64,000 nucleotides of DNA from Hirudinaria manillensis. Lineage: Eukaryota; Annelida; Clitellata; Hirudinida; Hirudinidae. A model generated the notes under the pieces. The model was given only the letters and a program-made list of their open reading frames with translations. It ran no database searches and was not told the DNA's origin. Both the position numbers and the translations under genes were made by a program. Location: assembly GCA_034509925.1 (NCBI GenBank), contig CM067531.1:5426001-5490000 (forward strand), written 5' to 3'. Below are positions 2,841 through 62,900 of the stretch, piece by piece; within the stretch, counting starts at the first letter, position 1, and the number at the start of each line of letters is the position of its first letter.

Positions 2841-2860
2841 AAGGTCAATGGAGCCATCAG

Positions 2861-9259
<6,399 letters not shown>

Positions 9260-40755: not shown

Positions 40756-40938
40756 TGTTATATCGTTCAATCGAAAGATAACTAGTCTAAGACAACGTTT
40801 AAGTAGCTTTATTCACTAATCACAGTATTACGACATCGAGATACAAAGAGCCCAAGCGGAATAGCTACAAGGCTATTTATAGTGGCCTTACACAATAGGA
40901 TTGCCGCGCCTCGCTCCTATTGGTGCACCACCACAACA
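40756..40938 (-). repeat. 3' LTR of the Gypsy-like element
   Basis: 183 bp, TG...CA, identical to the copy at 44203-44385; preceded (element orientation) by a polypurine tract. Confidence 0.95.
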
Positions 40939-40947
40939 CCTCCCCCC

Positions 40948-43900
40948 CTAACAAAACTGATACTTCTTCCTTCGAGTGTCCATCTCCAGTCGTCTGGGTG
41001 GTCGGCGTTTTCGCTGTTGCCTTGGAATATGCTCCGGCCCAACAGGAGCATTTTCCTCATGTCCTGTGATAGTCTCTTCAGCATCGGGACTGTTATCTTT
41101 CGGTTCCCTCACTGGGTTGATGAGGGGCAGCAAAGGCAGACTGAAGGTTTCTAACATCACGTTGAGGGCATTGTCCACTGCTCTGGGCCTCAACTGATTG
41201 GCATGCCGTCTGACAATCTTATTGTTGGACCTCACCTCGTAGAGCACTGATCCCAGTCTCCTGACAACCACTCCTGGAGTCCATCGACGTCTAGGATCTT
41301 CGTATGTCCTCATGTAGACTGTGTCACCTTCAGCAAAGTCCCTGCGGTGAGCCCTGTGCTTCTCTTGCACTTTCTCCTCCACCGCTTCTTTCTGTATGTG
41401 ACCCTGTAACCGGAGGTCACTTATCGGCGTCCTCAATGTTCGTCCAATGCAGTTTTCTGCAGGTGTCTTCTGACCTCGAAGTGCTTTGATGTCCTTTTCA
41501 ATCTTCGCGATGATGACATCCTCAGGTTCAGGCAACTTCGAAGCAATGAGTCGGGATAATGCATCGGCTTGTCCAAAGTGGCTCGTCTTTCTGTACTCAA
41601 TTTGGAAGTCGTAACTGAGTAAAGCAAGCTCCCATCTTTGCAACCGATTCGCTGAATGAGCGGAAACTCCTGTCTTCGATCCAAAGATTGACAGCAGGGG
41701 TTTGTGATCCGTCAACAGCAAGAAGCGTCGTCCATACAGGTATCGATGAAATTTCCTAACACCGAAAACCAATGCAAGAGCTTCTTTTTCTATCTGCCCG
41801 TAGTTTTGTTCTGCTGTTGTCAGGCTTCTCCCAGCATGTGCTATGGCCTTTTCCGTGCCGTTTGGAAACCGGTGTGAGATCACAGCACCCAATCCATACT
41901 CACATGCATCAGCAGCAACCACGATGTCGATTTCAGGTCTGAAATGCGTGACGAGCAGATCTGACTGTAGCACCTTCTTCAGTTTGTCAAAAACCTCCTG
42001 ATGCTTATCAGTCCACAAATATTTTTCTTTCTTCTCCAGATCATCCAGAAGTCCTCTCATGGATCGCATCTCTGGAACAAAAGAAGAGTAAAAACTAATC
42101 ATGCCCAAGAAGGATTTTAACTGCTTCTTGTCCTTGGGCGGAGGCATTTTGGCAATCGCGTGAATTTTCTCTGGGTCTGGTCGACGTCCATCCTTGCAAA
42201 TCAGATTTCCCAGGAATTTGATCTCTTTCTTCGCGAACGAACACTTCTCCATTCGAACACGGAATCCACATTCTGCGATCCTCTTGAAAAGAGCATGGAC
42301 ATTCTGATTGTGCTCCTCCAGTGTTGTACCCGTTACGGTGATGTCATCAAGGTAAGCTGCACAACCTTTCAATCCTGCGAGCATGCAGTCCATGGCCTCT
42401 TGAAAAATGCCTGGTGCGCACTTGACTCCAAAGGGTAGTCTCTGGTACTGGAACAGTCCCCTGTGTGTGTTGATCGTTACCAGCTCCTTTGAGTCTTCAT
42501 TGACTTCCATCTGCAGATATGCATCTGCCAAGTCAATTTGAGTGAACCATGCGCCCTGGTTCAGGTGCGAGAAGATTTCTTCTGGGGTCGGCAGTGGGTG
42601 TCTATGTGTCTCGAGTGCATCATTCAGGCCTGTCTTGAAGTCAGCACAGATTCTTACAGTTCCATTCTTCTTGTGCACGATAACTATCGGTGCAGCCCAA
42701 TGACTGTAATCTACTTTCTTCAAAACTCCTGCTTGCACGAGACGATCCAATTCATCATCCACGGCTTTCTCCACAGCGAAGGGAATCTTCCTTGGCCTGC
42801 AGAAGATTGGGCAACTTCCTTCCTTCACCTTGAATTCTGCCTTCTTTTTGGTGCATCGGCCCAGTTCCTCCTTGAAGACGTCAGGGTGTTCATCCAACAA
42901 TTGCTTTGTCAGATCCCCTACTTCAATTGGTCTGCGTTCCACTTGACAACAGATGGCATTGAAGGCTTCAGCAAATGGTGGTAACTGGTCCAACCACTCG
43001 ATGCCCAAAAGTTGATCCACTTCCTTGGCCACGAAGCAGCGACCATGGCCGGAGTATCCTTGGCAGCGAAATTGCACATCAAAACAACCAAGAATTTCAA
43101 TTGGGGTGCCGTTTGCAGCTGACAAAGTCACTGAAGATTTGTCCAGTTCTGGAGCTCCAATCTTCTCCCAAGTGTCGAAGTTGATGATGGTAACATCAGC
43201 TCCGGAGTCCAGCTGCATTTCAATCTTGGTGCCACCAAAATCGATTTCGGCAAATTTTCTGTTTCCTTTCCTCTGGTTGTTCTCAATCTTCTTCACTCTC
43301 ATCTTCTTCGGACAACTCTTCGCCAGATGAGTCGTCTCGTCACAGATGAAACATTTCCGTGCAGTTGAAGGTCGGACAGGTTCTTTGCTAGGGAACGCTG
43401 GTCGAGGCTTCTTTCTGCTTTTTCTCTGCACTGCTTGTATGACATTCGGAACCTCTTCGATGATGTTCGAATCATTTCGCAATGACACCAAGTGTTCACA
43501 CTCCTGGCACAAATCCCTCAATGTGCAATCTGGTTGCAACTCTATCTTTTGAAGCAACCTTGTTCGAAACTCTGCATACATCTTCTTCAGCCCCGCAACG
43601 AACAGTAGGCATTTAAACTGATTTGCTGTCATCGTGTTTGCCTGTGCTAATTCTGCTAGCCTGTTCACGTTCGCAGAGTAACTTTTGAAGTTCAAATCTA
43701 GAGCCTCCACTTGAATTGCGTTATAGCGTCGTCGGAAGAGACTAACCTGCTCTCCAAACAATGATTCTAGGTTCTCCCTGATTTCGTTGTACTTCAAATC
43801 TTTTGTTGACTGCGGTCGGATGTGGGACCTGAAGATATTGTAGACCTCTGTGTCGAGTTTCGTGAGGAGTATCTTGGCTCTGTCTTCGTCGGACAGTAGT

Positions 43901-44187
43901 GATCCGTGAGGGGCGACTGTATCTTCAAAACGCTCTATCCAAGATGTGAATGTGCCGCCACATTCGGGATCAAACTTGAACATTTGGGTCTTGCTGATCA
44001 GTTCCGTGATCAGTTCTTCCCCATGGCGATTTGTGGAGTTAGATACCGTTATCTTCTCCAACAGTTGCAATAACACGTCGTCTCTTTTTCTAGACTCTTC
44101 GTTTCGGAGACGATTTTCTTCATCGCGGCGGCGATTTTCTTCAAGGAACATCGTCATCAACGAAACGAGTTTATCCTCCGATCCCAT
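40948..44187 (-). CDS. Gag-Pol polyprotein of the Gypsy-like element, lacking the integrase catalytic core
   Basis: Single uninterrupted frame of about 1079 codons from the ATG at 44187; an open frame 10 codons longer runs into the LTR without an ATG. Order: coiled N-terminus (ENRRRDEENRLRNEESRKRD), gag, a CCHC zinc knuckle (CFICDETTHLAKSC), aspartic protease (LDSGADVTI), reverse transcriptase with the YxDD box (AAYLDDITVTG), RNase H (VAADACEYGLGAV, TDHKPLL), then an abrupt change near plus 41480. There RNase-H/connection sequence (KIEKDIKAL) is joined to the typical end of integrase (KTPAENCIGRTLRTPISDL) and its C-terminal domain (DTVYMRTYEDPRRRWTPG). The HHCC finger and DDE core, normally some 250 residues, are absent, yet the frame is kept. 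It should make particles and cDNA but cannot integrate alone. Confidence 0.93.
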   Translation of the reverse strand: MGSEDKLVSLMTMFLEENRRRDEENRLRNEESRKRDDVLLQLLEKITVSNSTNRHGEELITELISKTQMFKFDPECGGTFTSWIERFEDTVAPHGSLLSDEDRAKILLTKLDTEVYNIFRSHIRPQSTKDLKYNEIRENLESLFGEQVSLFRRRYNAIQVEALDLNFKSYSANVNRLAELAQANTMTANQFKCLLFVAGLKKMYAEFRTRLLQKIELQPDCTLRDLCQECEHLVSLRNDSNIIEEVPNVIQAVQRKSRKKPRPAFPSKEPVRPSTARKCFICDETTHLAKSCPKKMRVKKIENNQRKGNRKFAEIDFGGTKIEMQLDSGADVTIINFDTWEKIGAPELDKSSVTLSAANGTPIEILGCFDVQFRCQGYSGHGRCFVAKEVDQLLGIEWLDQLPPFAEAFNAICCQVERRPIEVGDLTKQLLDEHPDVFKEELGRCTKKKAEFKVKEGSCPIFCRPRKIPFAVEKAVDDELDRLVQAGVLKKVDYSHWAAPIVIVHKKNGTVRICADFKTGLNDALETHRHPLPTPEEIFSHLNQGAWFTQIDLADAYLQMEVNEDSKELVTINTHRGLFQYQRLPFGVKCAPGIFQEAMDCMLAGLKGCAAYLDDITVTGTTLEEHNQNVHALFKRIAECGFRVRMEKCSFAKKEIKFLGNLICKDGRRPDPEKIHAIAKMPPPKDKKQLKSFLGMISFYSSFVPEMRSMRGLLDDLEKKEKYLWTDKHQEVFDKLKKVLQSDLLVTHFRPEIDIVVAADACEYGLGAVISHRFPNGTEKAIAHAGRSLTTAEQNYGQIEKEALALVFGVRKFHRYLYGRRFLLLTDHKPLLSIFGSKTGVSAHSANRLQRWELALLSYDFQIEYRKTSHFGQADALSRLIASKLPEPEDVIIAKIEKDIKALRGQKTPAENCIGRTLRTPISDLRLQGHIQKEAVEEKVQEKHRAHRRDFAEGDTVYMRTYEDPRRRWTPGVVVRRLGSVLYEVRSNNKIVRRHANQLRPRAVDNALNVMLETFSLPLLPLINPVREPKDNSPDAEETITGHEENAPVGPEHIPRQQRKRRPPRRLEMDTRRKKYQFC

Positions 44188-44202
44188 CCTCGTCGCCAAA
44201 TA

Positions 44203-44385
44203 TGTTATATCGTTCAATCGAAAGATAACTAGTCTAAGACAACGTTTAAGTAGCTTTATTCACTAATCACAGTATTACGACATCGAGATACAAAGAGCCC
44301 AAGCGGAATAGCTACAAGGCTATTTATAGTGGCCTTACACAATAGGATTGCCGCGCCTCGCTCCTATTGGTGCACCACCACAACA
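44203..44385 (-). repeat. 5' LTR of the Gypsy-like element
   Basis: 183 bp, identical to 40756-40938. On the reverse strand it carries TATAAATAG and, downstream, AATAAAG. Confidence 0.95.
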
Positions 44386-44436: not shown

Positions 44437-44968
44437 CTTTGAAATGCATTAATAACAGAGTTATCAAACAAATTTTAAATTACAGCAACAATAACTTTGA
44501 AATTCATTTATGTCATAGATTTCGGCCTAACTAAGCTTTTGATACATTTCCAGTAAATGTAGCAGGCATTAAGTAAGAGTTTTTGAAGAAAAATAATATC
44601 GAGTTATTTGAATTTCAATGAAGGGATGCGATCTATTTTAAGTCTCAAATTAATATATTGAGACGGTTTTCTGGGCCCATTTTCAGATATGTTGTGTATT
44701 AATCATATATCTCTCTAATACCAAACTTTCGGCTCCCAATTTGTTGTGGTTTTAGAGTAAATTGGAAATAACAAATCACAACTTTTGAGAATCGAGTTCG
44801 GCGATCAAGTCCAGTGACTCGGATTTGCGCCCTATAGGCTCTTTTTCTCAATTACGAAAATTAGAAAAAAATTAAATTCAAAATAATTTAGGCAATAGGT
44901 TAATAATAAGAAATATGAATGATAAAGCCGAAGTTGGGACTTCTAAAGTGAATAGTTTTTCTTATGTG
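44437..44968. repeat. ~530-bp dispersed repeat, left inverted copy
   Basis: Closely matches the reverse complement of about 62255-62790 over its whole length by eye. Shared landmarks are GCATTAATAAC..GAGTTATCAAAC, the GGGCCCATTTTCAGATATGTTG block and the GATAAAGCCGAAGTT block. A more diverged third copy lies at about 54390-54860. The Gypsy element inserted about 50 bp outside its left end. It overlaps the last codons of the Ulp1-PHD gene. Confidence 0.85.
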
Positions 44969-47900
44969 AACAAGACCAAAAAATGGCCGGTTTTGACGAC
45001 TAAATCTGGAACTTGCTGGCAGTACTGGAGGTACCACCGTTCACAGAGCTCACATTCTACCATGGTTTCGTGATCTTCTTTGGCATCTCGAATCCAGTTT
45101 AAGTTGCAGTCACACCACAACTCGACAAAGATGAACCCATAGTTTGGACGATCCTTTAGATTTTAGGACACATTAGTTTAAATGAGCTTGATTGAATCAA
45201 GTGTACTGCTATCATAATTGTTACCTTCATTCTCATGAACGGTATGTCTATCTTCTCTTCCTTGAAGGACCTCACTATGACCTTCCTCAGATCTTCCTGG
45301 ATGTAACTGCAGCCTCTAGGGTCGAAACCTAAACACAATGAATATGTGTAGGCAATGGCCATAGGGCCGCAGTCATCACACCCAGTTTGATGCTGAACCA
45401 TCCTCCGGATAATTTTGAGTTCCTTGCCCCGAATACAATTTCTAGCCATATAGGCTATGGACCTTTGAGCTTGTTCGTTGATAGCAAAATTTAAGCTATC
45501 AAACAAACACACCTCGTCTGGTCCGCAATTGATATTCGAGATGGTGACCCAATGTGCACTAACATTCAAAATTTGAACAAATTCACCCGAAGGAGGTTCA
45601 GCGTTGAAGTTATGAGGAAGCGGTGTCAGCAATACTGCGCTTTTGACGTCGGTATCATAGAGGCTGCAAATAAAATTGAAATTACGTGATTGTATAACCA
45701 TGTAAAATAAATCCTTTTACCCTCCAATTGTTGGAAAATTATTTTTAAGCAGCATTTGTGCCAAGTTGATGTGCTGCGAGGAAAACCATGCCTTCTCTAG
45801 TAATATGTCGAATTCCGATGGAATCTGCAAAGGAAACGCTGTTTTACATGATTTGTCATTATTTGAAACGTACCTTTCATCATCAATAACGATGATGTGG
45901 TCTTCAACGGATTTGTCTTTTGCTTGTTCCTTCTTCGTGAATCCTCCTCTCTCAAATAAGTAGATGTCCTCATTGAACTTTAAAATAAAAGTCGTGATTA
46001 ATGGCTCTCTTGTAATTCAGTGAATTGAGTACCTTCTCTGCAGACTTGACGGGATATTTAGGTCCGCAATTGATATTCGAGATGGTGACCCAATGTGCAC
46101 TAACATTCAAAATTTGAACAAATTCACCCGAAGGAGGTTCAGCGTTGAAGTTATGAGGAAGCGGTGTCAGCAATACTGCGCTTATGACGTCGGTATCATA
46201 GAGGCTGCAAATAAAATTGAAATTACGTGATTGTATAACCATGTAAAATAAATCCTTTTACCCTCCAATTGTTGGAAAATTATTTTTAAGCAGCATTTGT
46301 GCCAAGTTGATGTGCTGCGAGGAAAACCATGCCTTCTCTAGTAATATGTCGAATTCCGATGGAATCTGCAAAGGAAACGCTGTTTTACATGATTTGTCAT
46401 TATTTGAAACGTACCTTTCATCATCAATAACGATGATGTGGTCTTCAACGGATTTGTCTTTTGCTTGTTCCTTCTTCGTGAATCCTCCTCTGTCAAATAA
46501 GTAGATGTCCTCATTGAACTTTAAAATAAAAGTCGTGATTAATGGCTCTCTTGTAATTCAGTGAATTGAGTACCTTCTCTGCAGACTTGACGGGATATTT
46601 AGGTCCGCAATTGATATTCGAGATGGTGACCCAATGTGCACTAACATTCAAAATTTGAACAAATTCACCCGAAGGAGGTTCAGCGTTGAAGTTATGAGGA
46701 AGCGGTGTCAGCAATACTGCGCTTATGACGTCGGTATCATAGAGGCTGGAAATAAAATTGAAATTACTTGATTGTATAACCATGTAAAATAAATCCTTTT
46801 ACCCTCCAATTGTTGGAAATTTATTTTTAAGCAGCATTTGTGCCAAGTTGATGTGCTGCGATGAAAACCATGCCTTCTCTAGTAATATGTCGAATTCCGA
46901 TGGAATCTGCAAAGGAAACGCTGTTTTACATGATTTGTCATTATTTGAAACGTACCTTTCATCATCAATAACGATGATGTGGTCTTCAACGGATTTGTCT
47001 TTTGCTTGTTCCTTCTTCGTGAATCCTCCGCTCTCAAATAAGTAGATGTCCTCATTGAACTTTAAAATAAAAGTCGTGATTAATGGCTCTCTTGTAATTC
47101 AGTGAATTGAGTGCCTTCTCTGCAGACTTGACGGGACATTTAGGTCCGCAATTGATATTCGAGATGGTGACCCAATGTGCACTAACATTCAAAATTTGAA
47201 CAAATTCACCCGAAGGAGGTTCAGCGTTGAAGTTATGAGGAAGCGGTGTCAGCAATACTGCGCTTATGACGTCGGTATCATAGAGGCTGGAAATAAAATT
47301 GAAATTACTTGATTGTATAACCATGTAAAATAAATCCTTTTACCCTCCAATTGTTGGAAAATTATTTTTAAGCAGCATTTGTGCCAAGTTGATGTGCTGC
47401 GAGGAAAACCATGCCTTCTCTAGTAATATGTCGAATTCCGATGGAATCTGCAAAGGAAACGCTGTTTTACATGATTTGTCATTATTTGAAACGTACCTTT
47501 CATCATCAATAACGATGATGTGGTCTTCAACGGATTTGTCTTTTGCTTGTTCCTTCTTCGTGAATCCTCCTCTGTCAAATAAGTAGATGTCCTCATTGAA
47601 CTTTAAAATAAAAGTCGTGATTAATGGCTCTCTTGTAATTCAGTGAATTGAGTACCTTCTCTGCAGACTTGACGGGACATTTAGGTCCGCAATTGATATT
47701 CGAGATGGTGACCCAATGTGCACTAACATTCAAAATTTGAACAAATTCACCCGAAGGAGGTTCAGCGTTGAAGTTATGAGGAAGCGGTGTCAGCAATACT
47801 GCGCTTATGACGTCGGTATCATAGAGGCTGGAAATAAAATTGAAATTACTTGATTGTATAACCATGTAAAATAAATCCTTTTACCCTCCAATTGTTGGAA

Positions 47901-50900
47901 ATTTATTTTTAAGCAGCATTTGTGCCAAGTTGATGTGCTGCGATGAAAACCATGCCTTCTCTAGTAATATGTCGAATTCCGATGGAATCTGCAAAGGAAA
48001 CACTGTTTTACATGATTTGTCATTATTTGAAACGTACCTTTCATCATCAATAACGATGATGTGGTCTTCAACGGATTTGTCTTTTGCTTGTTCCTTCTTC
48101 GTGAATCCTCCGCTCTCAAATAAGTAGATGTCCTCATTGAACTTTAAATAAAAGTCGTGATTAATGGCTCTCTTGTAATTCAGTGAATTGAGTACCTTCT
48201 CTGCAGACTTGACGGGACATTTAGGTCCGCAATTGATATTCGAGATGGTGACCCAATGTGCACTAACATTCAAAATTTGAACAAATTCACCCGAAGGAGG
48301 TTCAGCGTTGAAGTTATGAGGAAGCGGTGTCAGCAATACTGCGCTTATGACGTCGGTATCATAGAGGCTGGAAATAAAATTGAAATTACTTGATTGTATA
48401 ACCATGTAAAATAAATCCTTTTACCCTCCAATTGTTGGAAATTTATTTTTAAGCAGCATTTGTGCCAAGTTGATGTGCTGCGAGGAAAACCATGCCTTCT
48501 CTAGTAATATGTCGAATTCCGATGGAATCTGCAAAGGAAACGCTGTTTTACATGATTTGTCATTATTTGAAACGTACCTTTCATCATCAATAACGATGAT
48601 GTGGTCTTCAACGGATTTGTCTTTTGCTTGTTCCTTCTTCGTGAATCCTCCTCTCTCAAATAAGTAGATGTCCTCATTGAACTTTAAAATAAAAGTCGTG
48701 ATTAATGGCTCTCTTGTAATTCAGTGAATTGAGTGCCTTCTCTGCAGACTTGACGGGACATTTAGGTCCGCAATTGATATTCGAGATGGTGACCCAATGT
48801 GCACTAACATTCAAAATTTGAACAAATTCACCCGAAGGAGGTTCAGCGTTGAAGTTATGAGGAAGCGGTGTCAGCAATACTGCGCTTATGACGTCGGTAT
48901 CATAGAGGCTGGAAATAAAATTGAAATTACTTGATTGTATAACCATGTAAAATAAATCCTTTTACCCTCCAATTGTTGGAAATTATTTTTAAGCAGCATT
49001 TGTGCCAAGTTGATGTGCTGCGAGGAAAACCATGCCTTCTCTAGTAATATGTCGAATTCCGATGGAATCTGCAAAGGAAACGCTGTTTTACATGATTTGT
49101 CATTATTTGAAACGTACCTTTCATCATCAATAACGATGATGTGGTCTTCAACGGATTTGTCTTTTGCTTGTTCCTTCTTCGTGAATCCTCCTCTCTCAAA
49201 TAAGTAGATGTCCTCATTGAACTTTAAAATAAAAGTCGTGATTAATGGCTCTCTTGTAATTCAGTGAATTGAGTACCTTCTCTGCAGACTTGACGGGACA
49301 TTTAGGTCCGCAATTGATATTCGAGATGGTGACCCAATGTGCACTAACATTCAAAATTTGAACAAATTCACCCGAAGGAGGTTCAGCGTTGAAGTTATGA
49401 GGAAGCGGTGTCAGCAATACTGCGCTTATGACGTCGGTATCATAGAGGCTGGAAATAAAATTGAAATTACTTGATTGTATAACCATGTAAAATAAATCCT
49501 TTTACCCTCCAATTGTTGGAAATTTATTTTTAAGCAGCATTTGTGCCAAGTTGATGTGCTGCGATGAAAACCATGCCTTCTCTAGTAATATGTCGAATTC
49601 CGATGGAATCTGCAAAGGAAACACTGTTTTACATGATTTGTCATTATTTGAAACGTACCTTTCATCATCAATAACGATGATGTGGTCTTCAACGGATTTG
49701 TCTTTTGCTTGTTCCTTCTTCGTGAATCCTCCGCTCTCAAATAAGTAGATGTCCTCATTGAACTTTAAATAAAAGTCGTGATTAATGGCTCTCTTGTAAT
49801 TCAGTGAATTGAGTACCTTCTCTGCAGACTTGACGGGACATTTAGGTCCGCAATTGATATTCGAGATGGTGACCCAATGTGCACTAACATTCAAAATTTG
49901 AACAAATTCACCCGAAGGAGGTTCAGCGTTGAAGTTATGAGGAAGCGGTGTCAGCAATACTGCGCTTATGACGTCGGTATCATAGAGGCTGGAAATAAAA
50001 TTGAAATTACTTGATTGTATAACCATGTAAAATAAATCCTTTTACCCTCCAATTGTTGGAAATTTATTTTTAAGCAGCATTTGTGCCAAGTTGATGTGCT
50101 GCGAGGAAAACCATGCCTTCTCTAGTAATATGTCGAATTCCGATGGAATCTGCAAAGGAAACGCTGTTTTACATGATTTGTCATTATTTGAAACGTACCT
50201 TTCATCATCAATAACGATGATGTGGTCTTCAACGGATTTGTCTTTTGCTTGTTCCTTCTTCGTGAATCCTCCTCTCTCAAATAAGTAGATGTCCTCATTG
50301 AACTTTAAAATAAAAGTCGTGATTAATGGCTCTCTTGTAATTCAGTGAATTGAGTGCCTTCTCTGCAGACTTGACGGGACATTTAGGTCCGCAATTGATA
50401 TTCGAGATGGTGACCCAATGTGCACTAACATTCAAAATTTGAACAAATTCACCCGAAGGAGGTTCAGCGTTGAAGTTATGAGGAAGCGGTGTCAGCAATA
50501 CTGCGCTTATGACGTCGGTATCATAGAGGCTGGAAATAAAATTGAAATTACTTGATTGTATAACCATGTAAAATAAATCCTTTTACCCTCCAATTGTTGG
50601 AAATTTATTTTTAAGCAGCATTTGTGCCAAGTTGATGTGCTGCGATGAAAACCATGCCTTCTCTAGTAATATGTCGAATTCCGATGGAATCTGCAAAGGA
50701 AACGCTGTTTTACATGATTTGTCATTATTTGAAACGTACCTTTCATCATCAATAACGATGATGTGGTCTTCAACGGATTTGTCTTTTGCTTGTTCCTTCT
50801 TCGTGAATCCTCCTCTCTCAAATAAGTAGATGTCCTCATTGAACTTTAAATAAAAGTCGTGATTAATGGCTCTCTTGTAATTCAGTGAATTGAGTGCCTT

Positions 50901-52333
50901 CTCTGCAGACTTGACGGGACATTTAGGTCCGCAATTGATATTCGAGATGGTGACCCAATGTGCACTAACATTCAAAATTTGAACAAATTCACCCGAAGGA
51001 GGTTCAGCGTTGAAGTTATGAGGAAGCGGTGTCAGCAATACTGCGCTTATGACGTCGGTATCATAGAGGCTGGAAATAAAATTGAAATTACTTGATTGTA
51101 TAACCATGTAAAATAAATCCTTTTACCCTCCAATTGTTGGAAATTTATTTTTAAGCAGCATTTGTGCCAAGTTGATGTGCTGCGATGAAAACCATGCCTT
51201 CTCTAGTAATATGTCGAATTCCGATGGAATCTGCAAAGGAAACGCTGTTTTACATGATTTGTCATTATTTGAAACGTACCTTTCATCATCAATAACGATG
51301 ATGTGGTCTTCAACGGATTTGTCTTTTGCTTGTTCCTTCTTCGTGAATCCTCCTCTCTCAAATAAGTAGATGTCCTCATTGAACTTTAAAATAAAAGTCG
51401 TGATTAATGGCTCTCTTGTAATTCAGTGAATTGAGTGCCTTCTCTGCAGACTTGACGGGACATTTAGGTCCGCAATTGATATTCGAGATGGTGACCCAAT
51501 GTGCACTAACATTCAAAATTTGAACAAATTCACCCGAAGGAGGTTCAGCGTTGAAGTTATGAGGAAGCGGTGTCAGCAATACTGCGCTTTTGACGTCGGT
51601 ATCATAGAGGCTGCAAATAAAATTGAAATTACGTGATTGTATAACCATGTAAAATAAATCCTTTTACCCTCCAATTGTTGGAAAATTATTTTTAAGCAGC
51701 ATTTGTGCCAAGTTGATGTGCTGCGAGGAAAACCATGCCTTCTCTAGTAATATGTCGAATTCCGATGGAATCTGCAAAGGAAACGCTGTTTTACATGATT
51801 TGTCATTATTTGAAACGTACCTTTCATCATCAATAACGATGATGTGGTCTTCAACGGATTTGTCTTTTGCTTGTTCCTTCTTCGTGAATCCTCCTCTCTC
51901 AAATAAGTAGATGTCCTCATTGAACTTTAAAATAAAAGTCGTGATTAATGGCTCTCTTGTAATTCAGTGAATTGAGTACCTTCTCTGCAGACTTGACGGG
52001 ATATTTAGGTTCCACGCTGTAGATACCTAAACATTTATTAACGGACTTGCTTCGTTTTCTCTTTCTCCACTGCTCGACGTCGTACCATATGTGCCTTTCC
52101 ATCCTGTCATTATTTATGCATTGGAAGAGTGAATTGACTTGAACTGAACTGCTGCGTTTCGAGTTCGATTTTGACTCAACACGCTGCAGAAGGGTCCATG
52201 TTGTTTTTAGCATCGTGAACAAAATGGGTGGATTTGCAAGAAAATGTAAACGACGAAAATTGTAGAGGATAGTTTCATGATTTGTTTGATAGCCTCGAAG
52301 GTGGTTTTTTGAATAACTCGTTGGGTAGACCAA
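44962..52333 (-). CDS. Ulp1/SENP-type (C48) cysteine protease with C-terminal PHD-like finger; 12-fold internal exon array
   Basis: Reverse strand. An upstream exon (~52333-52008; start uncertain) ends ...YSVEP and runs into 12 tandem units (45520-52008). The terminal part is ...HWVTISNINCGP then DEVCLFDSLN, RMVQHQTGCDDCGPMAIAY up to MRMK at 45225, donor GTAACA. The last exon 45153-44962 encodes DRPNYGFIFVELWCDC...MVECELCERWYLQYC, stop at 44962. The C48 catalytic set is visible: His (HW), Asp (FDSLN), Gln (VQHQ) and Cys (GCDDCG). Such enzymes cut ubiquitin-like conjugates; many invertebrate copies belong to DNA transposons. The PHD-like finger has CxC and CxxC pairs but Leu where the ligand His is expected. 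Whether this is a host gene or transposon cargo is open; its position between inverted repeats favours a transposon. Confidence 0.8.
45520..52008 (-). repeat. Tandem array of 12 intragenic 540/541-bp units
   Basis: The marker GGTCCGCAATTG starts at 45520, 46061, 46602, 47143, 47684, 48224, 48765, 49305, 49845, 50386, 50926 and 51467; the array ends near 52008. Eight units are 541 bp and four are 540 bp. Each unit holds an intron of 55 bp (54 in three copies) and one of 57 bp, leaving 429 exonic bases (143 codons) in frame. One unit (48765-49305) has lost a base in an exon near 48980. Unit identity is very high. Blocks of three units (47143-48765 and 48765-50386) look like a higher-order duplication. 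Confidence 0.95.
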
Positions 52334-54207: not shown

Positions 54208-54900
54208 CTTGAATCAAATAACGCATGTTAAACCTGGTGACATTCTACGTGCACTCAGTCCGGCAAAGCGACGAATTTTCAAGAAATAATTTTTACATAA
54301 TAAGATGCTTCACAAAAAGTTACCTATTTTAAACATAAAATATATGACTAAGTAATTTTGAAATTTAAATGATCTCTCGCGATTTGTTTTCTTAACTTTC
54401 GCGCCAAATATACATTTTCGGGATTATAAGGAAACCTATTCACTTTACAGGATCCATCTCCGAGTTCCCCACTCCTAATGCTTATTATTAACCTATTATT
54501 TAGTTTTAAATTTAATTATTTTTTGATTTTCAAAATTGAGAAAAAAGAGCCTATGGGTTAATAACGAGTGCAACTCGACTTGTTGGCCGAACTCGATTCG
54601 CAAAAATGGAGTTCGGTGAGCAATTTCAAATTTACGTCGAAACTACATCAAATTTAAAACCGAAAAAAACGTTAATGAAAAGATACATGTCTAGGCTTCA
54701 ACATGTATAAAAATGAACTCTAAACTCTAACGAGAAATATTAATTTTCGGCCTTAAATGAACTGCGTCGCTTAATTTAATTCAGAAAACTCGCTATTATT
54801 TTAGTCTTTTCGGCCAAATACTCCCATTTAATGTTTGTTAAGTACTTTGAAAAATATTTTAAAAGCTTATTTGCACCAAGATAATTGACATATGTGAATT
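52334..54900. other. No confident gene; possible upstream exons of the Ulp1-PHD gene
   Basis: A reverse-strand frame at 53286-53005 (93 codons, start MRFIFNQLEDHSIVYFNQTR) may be an upstream exon of the protease gene or transposon remnant; no family recognised. A GC-rich 120-bp island lies at 53915-54040, an AAT run at 54172-54204 and a diverged copy of the 530-bp repeat at 54390-54860. The + strand frame at 54107-54289 is not recognised. Confidence 0.4.
54390..54860. repeat. Diverged third copy of the ~530-bp dispersed repeat
   Basis: Same orientation as the copy at 62255-62790. Shared landmarks: TTTCGGGATTATAAG followed by CTATTCACTTTA, CTTATTATTAAC, AATTGAGAAAAAAGAGCCTAT, GAACTCGATTC, and TTCAGAAAACTCG(C/A)TATTATTTTAGTCTTT. 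Many substitutions and gaps. Confidence 0.6.
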
Positions 54901-55006
54901 TCAAAATGGTTAGAATGATAATTGAATTGAATTGAATTGAAAAAAAATCAGCACGGGCCAACGGCCCCTCGCCGAAACCAAAAACAAAAACCAGTGCACC
55001 GACCCC

Positions 55007-56587
55007 TCAATCTAAATTGTAAATTCTATTAACAAAAAAACCGTCCAAGTTTCTCTTAAATTCCTCCACATCCCTTGACATCACAACTTCCTGTGGCAAA
55101 CTATTCCATTCCTGGACCACTCTGTTGCAAAAATAAAACTTTCTGCAATCTTTGTGGGCCAGTCTTGTCATCAGTTTTCTTTCATGTCCTCTGGTCCTGG
55201 AATATGTGCAGACAGAAAGGGAAGGACAAACTAAATCTTTCATTCCACTTGTCAACAACTTAAACAACAAAATCAAATCAGCTCTTTTTCTTCTATAACA
55301 CAAACTTGGCAATTTCAGTTTCTCTAGTCTCGATTGGTAAGGAAGGTCCCTACAGGATTGTCTTAATCTTGTAGCTCTTCTTTGTACTCCTTCAATCGCA
55401 TCAATCATTCCCTGTCTATAAGGGCTCCACACCTGTACTCCATACTCCAACTGAGACCTCACCAAAGACTTATACAAACTCACGAAAGCAAAATCCGACA
55501 GATATCTAAAATTTCTTGCTATGATACCCAACATCATATTTGCTTTCTTAACCCTTGAGAGAATGTGTTCTTTGAATTTTAAATCTGAATCTACAATAAT
55601 TCCAAGGTCCGTGAACGAGTTGTAAACTGGAATTTCATATTTTGTTCCATCTGGGTCTGTTAGCTGGTAGCTACTCAAGTGGTGTCTCCCCCCTACATGC
55701 AGTGCACAACATTTGTTCATATTAACTTTCATTTGCCATCTGTTGAACCAATCAATTATGTTATCCACATCCACCTGTAACTTGCTGCAGTCCTCCTCTT
55801 CGCTAATAACTCTATATATTTTTGTGTCGTCCGCAAACAAGAATAAGTTTTCACAAACAGTGTATATGTCGTTAATATATATGAGAAACAGCAATGGACC
55901 AAGTACGCTGCCTTGAGGGACTCCGCTAGTCACAGGCAACGAGTCTGACAGCTCCCCACCGACCCTCACCTGGAAACTCCGGCCCGACAAATAGTTACCA
56001 ATCCACACTACAACCATGTGGTGCACCCCATATCTCTCTAGCTTGAAGACTAGCTTTTCATGCGAGATCTTATCGAAGGCTTTTTCCAAGTCCGTGTAAA
56101 TTACATCAACTTCATCTCCGTCCTCCACCGCACTGGTAAGCGTATCCATAAATCTGAGCATTTGGAGAGTCATAGAACGAGATGGTAAAAATCCAAACTG
56201 ATTTTGAGCGAAAAGATCGTTTCTTGAAAAGTGAGCTATCAGATGGTCTTTAATGATTGATTCTAATATTTTGCTACAAACCGATGTCAACGACACAGGT
56301 CTATAGTTTGAAACTACACTTTTTATTCCTTTTTTGAACAGAGGAACCACATAGCTAGATCTCCAGTCTTCCACCACCACCCCTGACTGAATGGAACAAT
56401 CGAAGATGTGTTTCAAGTAACACTTTATCGATTCCCGTGTCTCTTTTAAAATTCTTGGATGAATTCCATTTGGTCCCGCTGATTTACTGCTGTTTAGATC
56501 TTTCAACATCCCGCACAGTACATTTATGTCGATCCGAACCTCCTCCATCTCGACTCCCGGAACTGTGGGATTGAAAACAGGTGTCAC
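55007..56587 (-). CDS. LINE reverse transcriptase, intact open frame
   Basis: 526 codons. Non-LTR reverse transcriptase motifs in order: LNSSKSAGPNGIHPRIL, SNYRPVSLTSVCSKILE, QFGFLPSRS, DLEKAFDKISHEKL, GVPQGSVLGPLLFLIYIND and the catalytic FADDTKIY. The thumb and C-terminus (LGIIARNF, SLYKSLVRSQLEYGVQVWSPY) match CR1/L2/Rex-like elements. No RNase H domain. The frame probably begins inside the original polyprotein, since upstream pieces are frameshifted. Confidence 0.92.
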   Translation of the reverse strand: MTPVFNPTVPGVEMEEVRIDINVLCGMLKDLNSSKSAGPNGIHPRILKETRESIKCYLKHIFDCSIQSGVVVEDWRSSYVVPLFKKGIKSVVSNYRPVSLTSVCSKILESIIKDHLIAHFSRNDLFAQNQFGFLPSRSMTLQMLRFMDTLTSAVEDGDEVDVIYTDLEKAFDKISHEKLVFKLERYGVHHMVVVWIGNYLSGRSFQVRVGGELSDSLPVTSGVPQGSVLGPLLFLIYINDIYTVCENLFLFADDTKIYRVISEEEDCSKLQVDVDNIIDWFNRWQMKVNMNKCCALHVGGRHHLSSYQLTDPDGTKYEIPVYNSFTDLGIIVDSDLKFKEHILSRVKKANMMLGIIARNFRYLSDFAFVSLYKSLVRSQLEYGVQVWSPYRQGMIDAIEGVQRRATRLRQSCRDLPYQSRLEKLKLPSLCYRRKRADLILLFKLLTSGMKDLVCPSLSVCTYSRTRGHERKLMTRLAHKDCRKFYFCNRVVQEWNSLPQEVVMSRDVEEFKRNLDGFFVNRIYNLD

Positions 56588-56934
56588 ATCAGAACCTGAA
56601 TCCGTAATATATACACTGATGCAAAAAAGTCCGCAAAAGCCTGTGCCTTCTCCTTGCCTCCAATCAAATCAGTGCCGTCCACTGAGATTGTACTGATTGC
56701 ATCTTTACTTCTTGTTTTCCTTTGTACATGATTCCAGAATAATTTTGGATTTGATTTGAATTTGATTGCTAATTGATTCTGGCTTTCTATATTTAGCTTC
56801 ACAGACAATTTTTTACTCTTTTTCTAAGGTCTTTGAATTCGTTGATTCTGTTCGTGTCACCATACCTGAAGATCTGTCTCCAGCAATAGTGTTTCCTCGT
56901 TATTAATTCATGAAGCTCTGGTGTCATTTTGATT

Positions 56935-57606
56935 CTAAACTTTTTGCACAGTCTGTGGGGTATGTGTTTTTTTTGTCAGCTCGTTTAAAGTATTTTTAAA
57001 GGCTGTCCACTTTGATTCAAGAGTCAAAGAGGGTCCCAAAACATCCACCAGCTTGTTATCAAGTTCAATATTTAAACTGGCATAATCTCCTAAATCATAG
57101 CAGGGCTTACTTCTAGCTCTGGCGCTATCTTCAACATCACATATAACATTGAACGAAACAATAGAGTGGTCGCTACTTCCCAATGGTGCGAGGCAAACAA
57201 CATTCTCTACTATATCATTTGATATCACCGAATCAAGGATATGTGCAATTTGTCCAAATCTAAATCTTGTTGGTTCCATGACATGTTGAGTCAGAAATCT
57301 GTCATCCAAAAAATTCAAAAATCTATTTTCAATCCTTGTTGTAGAACCTGAACAACCTGTCATTAACCAATCAATATCTGGGAAATTAAAATCTCCTATG
57401 AGCAAATGATCTCCTTCCAAACAAAAAAATTCCCCCAGCAACTGCATTAATTTGTCATTGTTGTCTGATGAACTATTTGGACTTCTGTAAATCATCAGTA
57501 CATTGAGAAATCCATGTGAAGTTACTACTCTGACACATAATTTCTCCAGAAATTCACTCTCCAAAATAATTTCACTGATCAAAAGGCTTTCTTTGTGATA
57601 CAACAT
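56935..57606 (-). pseudogene. Partial LINE endonuclease domain
   Basis: 223 codons with DFNFPDIDW and SSDHSIVSF, the latter half of an APE-type endonuclease. The N-terminal catalytic residues are missing by 5' truncation, and the frame ends early at a frameshift after PQTVQKV. Confidence 0.85.
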
Positions 57607-57620
57607 TATCCCTCTAATAA

Positions 57621-59160
57621 TAAATGTTTGTGTTTGATAATTTCGCTAATAATGAATTTTAAGTAAAACCAATTATAAAAAAACATTACTGATAATTAAA
57701 TCTTTATTTTGAGTAATATAATACTTGTTTTGAGTAGATTTGCTATTTTAAAATTATCAGGCCGAACCCAATGAAAACTCAAAACATGTTAGGGGTCGTC
57801 CATAAAAGAAGAGGCGGAGCGATGGTAGCGTGGCTTGTATTACTTCGGTGTCGAGAATTTGTTTTCGAGACTGCTGCATGAAATTCGAATTTGGTTTCAA
57901 TTGGAATTTATGTTTGAGTTTAAAATTTTTCTTTTCATGTTTGTTTATGACATCAATTCTCTTCCTAACATATTTTCTGACTTTTACATAGCAAACAATA
58001 GTTACAACAATCCTTTCTATTTCTTACGTAACACTCATGAATACAGTTTTTCTTTTGCTAAATATGCTTTTAAATTGTGTTCTATGCAATGTTATGGCCT
58101 CAGATTATACGATTCAATATCAGAATCAATTAAGGAGTTAACCTATTTGCATTCTTGCCCCTTTGAGTTATTTTTGTTTGTGTTTAAAAAATTGTGTAAG
58201 TCACATATAGCGAGAGTTGTCTCAGTTGTTTGAGTTTACATGTTCGTGTTATATAGATTATGTTTTTCAGGGCCAGTCTGTCTAACGGAATCTTGCGCTT
58301 ACTTAAGACTGACCCTAGGAGTTTATTTTTGCTTGTCTTAGGTCAATTTGATTCTTTCTATTATGCACGTAATTGTTTTTTTTTTAATTTGCTATTTAAT
58401 TGCTTCAGTTGCTTTGACACTTTAATAAACTCATTAAAAATAAAATAAAGACCCAACAGACTTTAAAAAAATTTCCCCATTTTTTACATAAAAGGCTGCT
58501 TTTTTAAATTTGATTTTTGAAAGATTGTTTATCATGTGTTTGATTAGGCTTTAGGTTCTTCAAACTAATTGCTCCAAAAACATTAAATTAAATATGGAAA
58601 TTTTTAGGAAAAATTTAAATTCTCTATTAAATGTTGGATATTAATTCTATTTATGGTCTTAAGTGAAAATAACTTTACAAATAATAAAACTACAATACAA
58701 ATTCATTACAAAAGAGTAACTAGCAAAACACAGTTGTTCAGTAGTAACTTAAAGAAATTTTATTCCATAGCATTCCATGTACATAAAAAAAAAATAGAAT
58801 AAAACAGTGTTCCTGGCTGTACACAATATTTAATTAAAATGGGAACTTAAGCTAGAAATCATAAAATTAACTAAAATTGTACTGCATATTTTAATAAATT
58901 GAAAGTTCAAATAAAAAGTATATTACAAGAACAAAAAGTGTTAAATCTTAAAATTCTGCAGACAAGTAAATACATTCATTGAAATTGAAATTTCAATAAT
59001 AATTATATAACTAATATGACCTAAGTTGAAATTTACATGAAGCTTTTGACTCTGCTTAAAACAGAATAAAACAATTTTGTTAATTCCACTTGCTTATTTA
59101 CATTTATACCCCTTGCATTGGTCAATTTTTCAAAAAATTCTTTGTCTGATTTTAATGTTT
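57621..59160. other. AT-rich spacer inside the transposon cluster
   Basis: No recognised gene. The frames at 57835-58233 and 58260-58448 (+) are Phe/Leu/Ser-rich and unassigned. GTTAGGGGTCGTCCATAAAA at 57788-57807 recurs at 62101 as GCTAGGGGTCGTCCATAATG. Confidence 0.5.
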
Positions 59161-59162
59161 CT

Positions 59163-60925
59163 CTAATTGCAGGCAAGGAAGGCACTTTTTTTTATAGTTA
59201 TGAAATGATTAAACAATGCCCTCAGATGCTGTAAATGTTCATCATCCCAAGGCACTCTCTTTTGGATGCTTCTGGCAATCTTTGATCTGTGATGATCTAA
59301 GATAGTTGCTGCTATGGATGTTGATGCTGATATTGAAGCTGATGTTGAGGTTGAAATTGATGCTGATATCGAAGCTGATGTTGAGGTTGAGGTTGACATT
59401 GATGCTGAGGGACCCAAATTGTATGCATCCATCAGAATTTCTCTTGCTTCATATGCTACATCCCTTTTAGATGCAACAGCATAATGGGCCTCTGCAGTTG
59501 CTGTTGAGTGTCCCATATGTCTTGCCAAAATCTGTCTTTTATCCGGTGCATGTTTGGCAACTGCTGATGCAGCCATCCTCCTCAGTGTGTTACCACTCAC
59601 TTTGTGAGAAAATCCTTGTCCCTCGAAAGCTTTTGATAAAATGTACCTAATATTATCTGCCGTAATAGGGCTGCCTCTGGTGGTCGGAAATACCCATTGG
59701 CAATCAGGGGCAAAGTCAGCAACAAATATATTTCTAGCCTTTAGATAAGACTCAAATAGCTGGCTCAAATCTGGGCCCATTGCCAGAGTTGTTGCACCAT
59801 AACTTGATGCAGTTTTGTGCTTGGCAATTGAGTAAAAAATTACTTCATCTTTCTCTGATTTATTTTCTAATGCAGACATTGCAAAATTTTTCAAGACGCA
59901 GGGCCTGTTGGCATTTTCGACAGAGATCTGGACAATCATATGGTCCCTCTATTTAACAAATTCTTTGTGGCTAATTGGTGCAGTCTGTAAATTAAACAGA
60001 TCACTTTCTAATTTTATGATATCTGGGGTATGTAAATAACTGGAATAAAATTGTGGGCTTAACAATGTCCTCATTTTTTTCTCTTCTTTTATGCCTTCAT
60101 ACAGTTTCAATTCTTTTCTAGCTGTTTGCACCCATCTTTTTATTGTAATTTCCCAACGGGGGAAATCTAATGCATTGTTGTCTATTTCTCCAGTACTCTG
60201 TTTAATGCTTATGAATTCCATAAATGATTTAAGAGAATACACATAAGAAATCATTGTAGATGGTTTCAAGGCATATTCATTTGATGATTTAAATACTTTG
60301 TTGAAATAAAGTTCTCCTACTCTTTCTGGTTGAAGCATGTTAATGTTGGTTCCAACCACTCTGATTATATTTTTAATTTGGCTCAGGGTATGGTTGGCAT
60401 TTGATTTATTTCCTCCACTGAACGACTGCAGATAGTTAAGGAATTCAGTCAAAAATTCTTCATTCACTTCTTCTCCTTGTATTTCCATTTCTGGACTTTC
60501 AATTTCTAAGTTATCGGATGTATTACTCGGCTCAAATCGAATAATGTTCATTACAACGGGAATCTCTTTATTAGACGAATGTTCTGAGGAAACATCATCA
60601 ACCATTGCATGTTCTGCTGGAATATATTGTTTGTAATGTGAAGAATATTGCCCTTTAATAATGTTCATCTTTTGTTTTAAATCATCTCCAGTCAATCCAT
60701 GAGAGTTTTTTAGATGTTGCTGAGGGCTAGTAAAATACCTCATACAAACTGGATACATTTTCTTCATTTTTTCAGATTTTGTTCGGTAATGAGGAAGGGC
60801 TGACACTAAAGCACTTGGTTCTTCAATTTTATGAATTCTGCTTTTTAAGTGCCTCGTCAGCCTCTGCACCATCTTGTGACACAAAGGACACTCTTTAATT
60901 CTACCACTTTTCTCCTAAAAAATGT
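59163..60925 (-). pseudogene. Crypton-like tyrosine recombinase, one in-frame stop
   Basis: Reverse strand. An N-terminal C2H2-like finger (ECPLCHKMVQRLTRHLKSRIH) begins upstream of the first ATG at 60884. An acidic linker and a core-binding region follow, to EFVK, then a TAG at about 59951-59949; the same frame resumes at RDHMIVQISVEN. The catalytic domain shows the first Arg (NANRPCVLKNF), the Lys (AKHKTASSYG), an Arg in GNTLRRMAAS, HMGHSTATAEAHY with its His and the nucleophile Tyr (HYAV). A Ser/Thr/Ala-rich repeat tail (59300-59410) precedes a C-terminal KRVPWDDEHLQHLRALFNHF segment. Tyrosine recombinases of this type move Crypton-class DNA transposons. The single TAG makes it a recent pseudogene, unless read through or removed by splicing. 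Confidence 0.8.
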
Positions 60926-62254
60926 ATTAGATCAATTATAATTATTCTAATTATTTCTAATTATGATATGAACAACAGTCACCCAAACAATTGGAGTTAT
61001 GGTGCAATAGAGAAGAAGTTGTCTATAGTAAGAGATAAATTAATGTCTGAACTTGACATTATTATATGTTTCTTGAAATTTCTAGATGAATAGATATTTT
61101 TAGCCTAGATAAAAGGCAGTGGACCTATCAAAGGAAACCTATCATCTTAGAGAAAGATAGATCACATTATTAGCAAAAGATACAAAATTTCCTATGACCA
61201 ATCAGAAATTGCACCAAAAGAAAGTGCAGAGCAAAAATAATTTGAAATCAATGGCTTAGACCATTCTCATATATTTTTGGGGCCAATCATAAGATATGGG
61301 ATTTTTGCCATTATTGCATTATTCCATATAAATTGTGATTGAGCAAACAATGTCATAGAGCAGCATTTTAATCTAAACTACAAAAATGTATGTTTCACAG
61401 TATACAATATTCAAAGTTCCCTTTATCTATTGCACTTTGTCTCCAATGCATTAAGCCATTCATTTCAATATAATAATAATAATAATAATAATTACTGGAT
61501 TTGATTCCTCAAAAATGACTTTCACTGCTTCACAATTTTCTTCTATATCCATTGATATTTTTGTAATATTCTATAAAATAATGAAATCGTTTCTAGCTGC
61601 TCCAAATAATAACTTAGCACTGTTTATGATAACTTACAGAAGAGCTTTCCTGAGTCTCCGAAATATCAAATAAGTATAAAATATGAAATTTCTATAAAAT
61701 TCTTTCAAGGAAGATAAAGGAATGTGGAACTAAAGTTCAAAGCCAACCCTTATATCTAACGATGAAGACAAGTATTCAGCATGGCTGCTGTTCCAGTTAT
61801 ATCATTGCGAAGCCAAATTTCCCACATCTACTGGCGAATTTGGAGGATGAAATTCCCAGTAATTTTTAAAAAAGTAGAATATTTATAAGTGCTTCCTGAA
61901 GTTTTTTGAAGAAGTTTTTAAAGCACCAAAAAATGCTCATGAAACTGTGGGCTGTCCTCCCTCCTATCTAAGTAATGTCTATAAATACAAATAAATCTAC
62001 TTGAACAGGAACAATTGGACAAAAAATAGATGAATCCAGGATGAAACAAGCTTTAAGAGTTTTTTCAAGGTTTTGAGCGGAACGAAATGTTTCAAAACAT
62101 GCTAGGGGTCGTCCATAATGAACTTTCGCGGATGATTTGATCATTTTTGTCCACAAAAGTCCGCTATTGATAGCAAAGTGATAGTAAAGCATGCTTTATC
62201 AAACATTAGGTTTTACAATTTTTCAAAGTTTCGTGCCCATCTTATATTTTCGAG
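60926..62254. other. Spacer, no gene recognised
   Basis: AT-rich; a short AAT run at 61470-61492. No domain found in either strand. The reverse frame at 62192-61968 overlaps the repeat edge and is unassigned. Confidence 0.5.
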
Positions 62255-62790
62255 ATTATAAGAAAAACTATTCACTTTAGAAGTCTCAACTTCGGCTTTA
62301 TCATTCGTGCTTCTTATTATTAACTTACTACCTGAATTATTTTAAATTTAATTTTTTTATAATTTTCGAAATTGAGAAAAAGAGCCTATAGGGCGCGAGC
62401 TCAAGTTACTCGACATGATCGACGAACTCGATTCTCAAAAGTTGCGATGATTTGTTATTTCCAATTTACACAACAAATTGGGAGCCGAAAGTTTGGTATT
62501 GGAGAGATATATGATTAATACACAACATATCTGAAAATGGGCCCAGAAAACCGTCTCAATATATTAATTTGAGAATTAAAATGGATCGCGTCCCTTCATT
62601 GAAATTCAAATAACTCGATATTATTTTTGTCTTTTTCTTCAAAAACTCTTACTTAATGCCTGCTACATTTACTGGAAATGTATCAAATGCTTAGTTAGGC
62701 CGAAATCTATGACATAAATGAATTTCAAAGTTATTGTTGCTGTAATTTAAAGTTTGTTTGATAACTCCGTTATTAATGCATTTGAAACTA
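62255..62790. repeat. ~530-bp dispersed repeat, right inverted copy
   Basis: Reverse complement of the left copy at 44437-44968. Outermost bases read GTTATTAATGCATTTGAAA on the + strand against GAAATGCATTAATAAC on the left. It sits directly downstream of the splice donor of the hAT-like exon. Confidence 0.85.
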
Positions 62791-62900
62791 CGCCGATTTT
62801 GGAAAATATTACATAAAGCAATTTCTTCACCAGCCCTCTCACTCTAAAATACAATATTATTCAGAGAGGGAATATCAACAATAACAATTATATGACATAC

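Follow-up and report, generated by a model that had tools for sequence, protein, structure and literature searches.

Tandem amplification of a two-intron segment within a transposon-like Ulp1-PHD protease gene of Hirudinaria manillensis

A coding segment repeated many times over within what looks like a single protease gene raises the question of whether the copies serve as modules of a repeat protein, as alternatives for exon choice, or as neither. Such a segment is found in a window of 64,000 nucleotides from the annelid Hirudinaria manillensis (assembly GCA_034509925.1, CM067531.1, here contig 6, positions 5426001-5490000), in which a first-pass annotation had described a unit of 540/541 bp, repeated 12 times inside a Ulp1/SENP-like gene with its reading frame preserved, and had left the three options of repeat protein, exon choice and non-functional sequence side by side. 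Searches were run against the whole genome (148.4 Mb in 23 contigs).

The twelve-fold repeat is borne out by direct anchor counting and by alignment. The units stand head to tail, start at positions 45520, 46061, 46602, 47143, 47684, 48224, 48765, 49305, 49845, 50386, 50926 and 51467 (a spacing of 540 or 541 bp), and are 98-100% identical, with 11 variable columns among all of them. Because the gene lies on the minus strand, the unit at 51467-52007 (u12) is the 5' unit, and the one that starts at 45520 (u1) is the 3' unit. A DNA search with the unit gave 12 full-length matches, which are the array itself, and one further near-full-length match of 86% identity on contig 9; TRF, with periods up to 500 bp, did not list the array. 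The repeat itself is confirmed, and it is very unlikely that an assembly artefact has inflated a true locus of one or few units. The near-identity of the units, with u1 and u12 the same over 541 bp, would be in keeping with such an artefact, but the units comprise nine different sequences, arranged without periodicity, as well as two diverged types and a block duplication, and the array takes up just 6.5 kb of a contig of 11.46 Mb. The observed order of units would be hard to produce by an assembler loop.

Each unit starts near the end of one exon and finishes with HWVTISNINCG. In a two-intron gene model, which is plausible, intron 1 is 55 bp long, but 54 bp in u5, u8 and u10, and intron 2 is 57 bp long (Table 1). 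Splicing then leaves 429 nt in 11 of the 12 units, as had been stated, and 428 nt in u7, which has a separate 1-bp exonic deletion outside intron 1. The intron sizes proposed earlier stand, with the correction that the donor of intron 1 is GT in seven units and GC, not GT, in the other five (u3, u6, u9, u10 and u11); similarly, the statement that length variation falls mostly within intron 1 holds for the three 54-bp introns but not for u7. As the 1-bp indels sit within homopolymer runs, sequencing errors may account for them. HWVTISN closes the unit in 11 of the 12 spliced translations, that of u7 being out of frame, and the half of the enzyme with the Asp, Gln and Cys motifs follows u1 only, both in agreement with the first description. 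The exon part upstream of the array has one base more, at one place, than the related loci L015, L016 and L021.

Both intron places coincide, when read by eye, with introns of two distant relatives, L033 and L034. These relatives have an additional intron, ending right before VSPFAH/VSPFGH, the counterpart of the exon start IPSEFD in the window. At this place all 12 units hold a 49-bp stretch with GT and AG ends, and its acceptor matches the intron end in L033/L034. Since 49 is not divisible by 3, removal of this stretch as a third intron would break the frame, and the figure of 143 codons per unit thus hinges on the gene model chosen. Intron 1 was also considered as coding sequence, one frame being open for 179 aa in u5, u8 and u10; this reading was rejected, given that the form without the deletion is present in L015, L016 and L021 and that L033/L034 are interrupted by an intron at this place.

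Table 1. Features of the amplified gene and its flanks, in window positions
Feature	Position	Strand	Basis
High-copy dispersed repeat piece, 3' side of gene	44438..44965	-	Genome matches
Last exon; partial PHD finger under Pfam cut-off, end unlike L016	44962..45153	-	Translation, Pfam
Catalytic half, single copy (Asp, Gln, Cys motifs), after last unit	45225..45519	-	Splicing; alignment with L016, L033, L034
Array, 12 units of 540/541 bp	45520..52007	-	Anchors, lengths, alignment, splicing
u7, 1-bp exonic deletion and premature stop	48765..49304	-	Alignment, splicing, variant pattern
Intron 2 of u12, 57 bp, GT-AG, repeated in all units	51611..51667	-	Splicing; place common to L033/L034
Intron 1 of u12, 55 bp, GT-AG, repeated in all units	51925..51979	-	Splicing; place common to L033/L034
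5' exon part, possible start codon to array, 95 nt	52008..52102	-	Reading frame
High-copy 145-bp repeat piece, 5' side of gene	52146..52290	-	Genome matches

What protein could such a gene encode? When all 12 units are included, the two-intron translation stops at 848 aa with five copies of HWVTISN; the frame ends there because of the exonic frameshift in u7, and the idea that up to 12 copies are encoded end to end is not supported. A splice that leaves out u7 is open for 1766 aa and has 11 HWVTISN copies, and a splice from the first donor directly to the acceptor of u1, the last unit, gives an open frame of 336 aa, in which all four catalytic motifs (His, Asp, Gln and Cys) are followed by a partial PHD finger. 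The suggestion that any copy can splice to the next is upheld by the translated splice models, in which a unit can join a later unit in phase. A real repeat protein, with N-terminal-half modules in series or with a Dscam-like alternative choice of units, would suit the 429 nt found in 11 of 12 units and the long frame that opens when u7 is dropped. We nevertheless regard it as scarcely probable, since u7 stops the full-inclusion frame, five of the 12 intron 1 donors are GC, a single unit is without the Asp, Gln and Cys motifs, and the arrays of two related genes are not open (see below); moreover, the units differ at just six residues, so that exon choice would add little.

The one-unit translation contains, in this order, HWVTI, FDSL, VQHQTG and DDCGP, which we take to be the His, Asp, Gln and Cys catalytic motifs; in a comparison of four relatives H, Q and DCGP are invariant, and Asp is replaced by Asn in L034. 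The window protein is not matched by the Pfam C48 profile, even with E values up to 1 admitted, and its nearest relative, L016, scores 13.7 bits, below the cut-off of 20.7; L033, at 25.4 bits, is above it. The Ulp1 assignment therefore stands on the 48% identity between the window protein and L033 and on the motifs, and with these the Ulp1 part of the earlier description is sustained. L033 has both C48 and PHD above the Pfam cut-offs, and L002 has C48 above and PHD at the cut-off. A profile made from the four relatives had a single PDB match, a Ulp1-like SUMO protease (E 0.025).

The notion of a SENP-type host gene, by contrast, gives way to membership in a dispersed, transposon-like family, as seen from the scattered matches, the layout of L016 and the high-copy flanks. 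The unit DNA has 33 matches in the genome, namely the 12 window units and 21 others, which we group into 18 places, at 71-92% identity; this, together with the flanks, points to derivation of the unit from a dispersed multicopy element. The catalytic half, searched as protein, has 64 matches, 12 of them in the window, and stops fall within 21 of the 64. L016 is located on the same contig and is 91% identical to the window protein over 147 aa and 93.7% identical in DNA over 899 bp; it has transposase-like frames at approximately 995-3729, followed by Ulp1 at 4217-5354 and PHD up to 5527. The window matches L016 up to position 530 of the latter and, immediately next to this, from 4183 onwards; the window copy thus lacks the transposase-like part. 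Six frames from L016 and L029 were compared with Pfam and matched no transposase family, their resemblance to transposases being judged by eye, and for this reason the superfamily is left unnamed. The word transposon is drawn here from copy number and architecture, the transposase-like frames being without a Pfam family and element ends with a target-site duplication not being established.

Both flanks of the gene are repetitive. The piece on the 3' side has 40 scored matches among 139 candidates, window included, at 95-100% identity, and the 145-bp piece on the 5' side has 182 genomic matches, window included. At least 14 of the 40 scored copies, window included, have a typed 145-bp copy within 9 kb, a lower bound obtained with 46 of the listed 145-bp places; in 11 of the 13 pairs outside the window the two pieces are 1.1-1.7 kb apart, a spacing as expected for parts of one short mobile element. 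A pair of inverted segments of 68% identity (44496-44965 and 54426-54905) was considered as terminal inverted repeats of a 10.4-kb Ulp1 element and rejected, because 44438-44965, 54281-54922 with 57619-57806, and 62082-62812 all match one and the same repeat in L016, L025 and L033; the second and third of these are more copies of the repeat found next to the gene. The copy at 54281-54922/57619-57806 is split by frames at 55007-57645 that look like those of a LINE. Beside the 3' side of the gene there is a single frame of 1103 aa within 40756-44385 that looks like the gag-pol of an LTR retrotransposon, together with 100% identical direct repeats of 183 bp (40756-40938 and 44203-44385). Two frames at 59163-60914 resemble a tyrosine recombinase of the Crypton/DIRS type.

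The differences between units allow parts of the history of the array to be read. Three pairs of units are identical (u1 and u12, u5 and u8, u6 and u9), and u4-u5-u6 differ from u7-u8-u9 at 2, 0 and 0 columns, respectively; these are a duplicated three-unit block. With L015, L016 and L021 as outgroups where alignable, u1 and u12 have new states at columns 113, 223, 323, 375, 394 and 418, whereas u5 and u8 have old states at these six columns and new states at 6, 76 and 281, which shows that two diverged unit types are intermixed in the array. All four combinations of states are present at columns 30/281 and at 76/113, implying recombination or repeated mutation. The units had been said to be either very recently expanded or under homogenisation; both apply, as the units are nearly identical and recombinationally mixed. 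At the edges of the array, the sequence reads GGAACC/TAAAT on the 5' side and GGACC/AGACG on the 3' side, and the junction between units reads GGACC/TAAAT; by the match of boundary and junction, the two duplication sites have ACC in common.

Amplification has also taken place elsewhere in the family, in two loci to which the protein matches of the catalytic half led. In L029 (contig 2), a third Ulp1-PHD lineage, a 287-bp unit with the Gln/Cys part is present four times at approximately 3893-5034, with 0-5 differences between copies; its length is not a multiple of 3, and there are stops in all three frames. L032 (contig 9, 5170500-5180400) is a nested composite of approximately 1413-bp units that include the Ulp1 His-to-Cys half, with blocks 99% identical; all five blocks counted have stops in all three frames, the last block extends past the regular part, and one open stretch of 403 aa spans two Ulp1 segments. 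Other frames inside the approximately 1413-bp unit look like a reverse transcriptase. The three lineages thus have arrays over different parts of the enzyme: the N-terminal half with the His motif, 12 times, in the window; the Gln/Cys part, four times, on contig 2; and the His-to-Cys half on contig 9. Since these arrays cover other Ulp1 parts and are not open, amplification in the family has been repeated, with no sign of tuning to the frame. That such amplification is a recurrent and perhaps favoured fate of the family, in which incomplete or repeated modules act as decoys or silencing triggers against active elements, would agree with the three lineages, and we give it very little credence. 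A piece of 84 bp is repeated in L016 at a distance of 304 bp.

Tandem growth as such is not rare in this genome. The background sample of 308,722 bp comprised the window and 28 loci, 23 of them chosen by a Ulp1 match and five arbitrary 10-kb stretches, and an array was counted when it had at least three copies of a unit of at least 100 bp, a rule that missed the approximately 1413-bp period of L032. The rule returned the window array and those in L016 (134 bp, 4.9 copies), L025 (104 bp, 9.5 copies), L029 (287 bp, 4 copies) and L038 (138 bp, 4.9 copies), the last being the one array in the five arbitrary stretches; the sample is too small to claim an enrichment in Ulp1 genes.

Is the frame of the array under selection? 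By our count under the two-intron model, exonic substitutions among the units are six replacement and one silent, too few to decide the matter. Compared with L015, u12 differs at 8/55 positions in intron 1, 13/49 in the 49-bp stretch and 13/104, 14/104 and 20/144 in exon parts; the introns are no more diverged than the exons, and intron 2 (3/57) is below its flanking exon parts (the last two values). Frame preservation had been presented as meaningful. The related arrays speak against this: as both have stops in all frames, 429 = 143 × 3 may be a one-in-three chance. Over 145 codons the catalytic half, which is in single copy, differs from L016 by 13 silent changes and 14 replacements (dN/dS 0.26), a constraint that may date to either branch or to the time before the array; taken with the open 336-aa one-unit splice, it suggests that the gene may have worked recently. 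It is conceivable, then, that the gene is expressed and the array harmless, splicing from the first donor to a late-unit acceptor yielding one ordinary Ulp1-PHD protein whatever the neutral number of copies. The constraint on the catalytic half would fit such a role, as would the one-unit frame with its four motifs; however, the PHD end is unlike that of L016 (FLVLFT in the window, FWSCSHC in L016), and the nearest copies are mostly broken, and we consider the harmless array rather unlikely.

Of the three options initially offered, non-functional sequence fits best, given the u7 stop, the GC donors and the related arrays that are not open. Most probably, the locus is a recent tandem amplification in a decayed, transposon-like Ulp1-PHD protease gene, a young satellite-like repeat the frame of which is unselected. 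As judged from the junction, one tandem duplication would have fused two exons across the ACC, the His-motif exon at its middle and an earlier exon at its end; the variant pattern then points to unequal exchange or conversion, which probably mixed the two types, copied the three-unit block and brought the array to 12 units, presumably with no selection on the coding frame. Any protein would most likely come from splicing that bypasses the extra copies, or else none may be made.

The Tetris foldback element is said to be a case of tandem repeats born from part of a transposable element. In two reviews, coding parts of transposable elements are among the listed sources of tandem repeats, and microhomology and unequal exchange are among the mechanisms proposed for repeats and satellites that arise from such parts (PMC12628747, PMC9659126). 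As in the satellites covered there, part of a mobile element is amplified head to tail here; unlike them, the unit is a coding segment of a Ulp1-like protease with two introns, the array has 12 copies at a single locus, and related genes bear independent arrays elsewhere in the enzyme. Ulp1 and PHD domains have been described in transposases of the Ginger1 and Mutator types, Ginger1-9_HM being listed with both (PMC2836005), and the portion of that account available to us describes no array. The family studied here likewise has Ulp1 and then PHD beside transposase-like frames, but these match no Pfam family, so that it can be assigned to neither superfamily. Leucine-rich repeat (LRR) genes of Tetrahymena have phase-keeping arrays of exon/intron units near mobile elements, attributed to unequal crossing over (PMC6564038). 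Both cases are arrays of intron-bearing exon units that keep phase; the LRR genes, however, encode proteins built of repeated domains, to which further modules can sensibly be added, whereas here the unit is part of one enzyme domain. In Dscam, tandem exon copies are used in a mutually exclusive way, and diversity results; the present gene resembles it in having tandem exon copies, and differs in that its units vary at just six residues.

Among known kinds, the nearest is the tandem repeat that arises from a portion of a mobile element, and the two-intron protease unit with arrays in three lineages is a neat example rather than a new kind; among the literature titles none on Ulp1-segment arrays was found, which is not proof of absence. 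If transcripts do include several units, half of an enzyme would here be repeated as serial modules, which is unusual. At this locus the growth of a repeat within a mobile-element gene can be followed, with unique flanks, two types of unit, mosaics and a duplicated block all visible. With phase-matched splicing, the protein could be unaffected by an array, however large, and this is a possible reason why such arrays might persist in genes.
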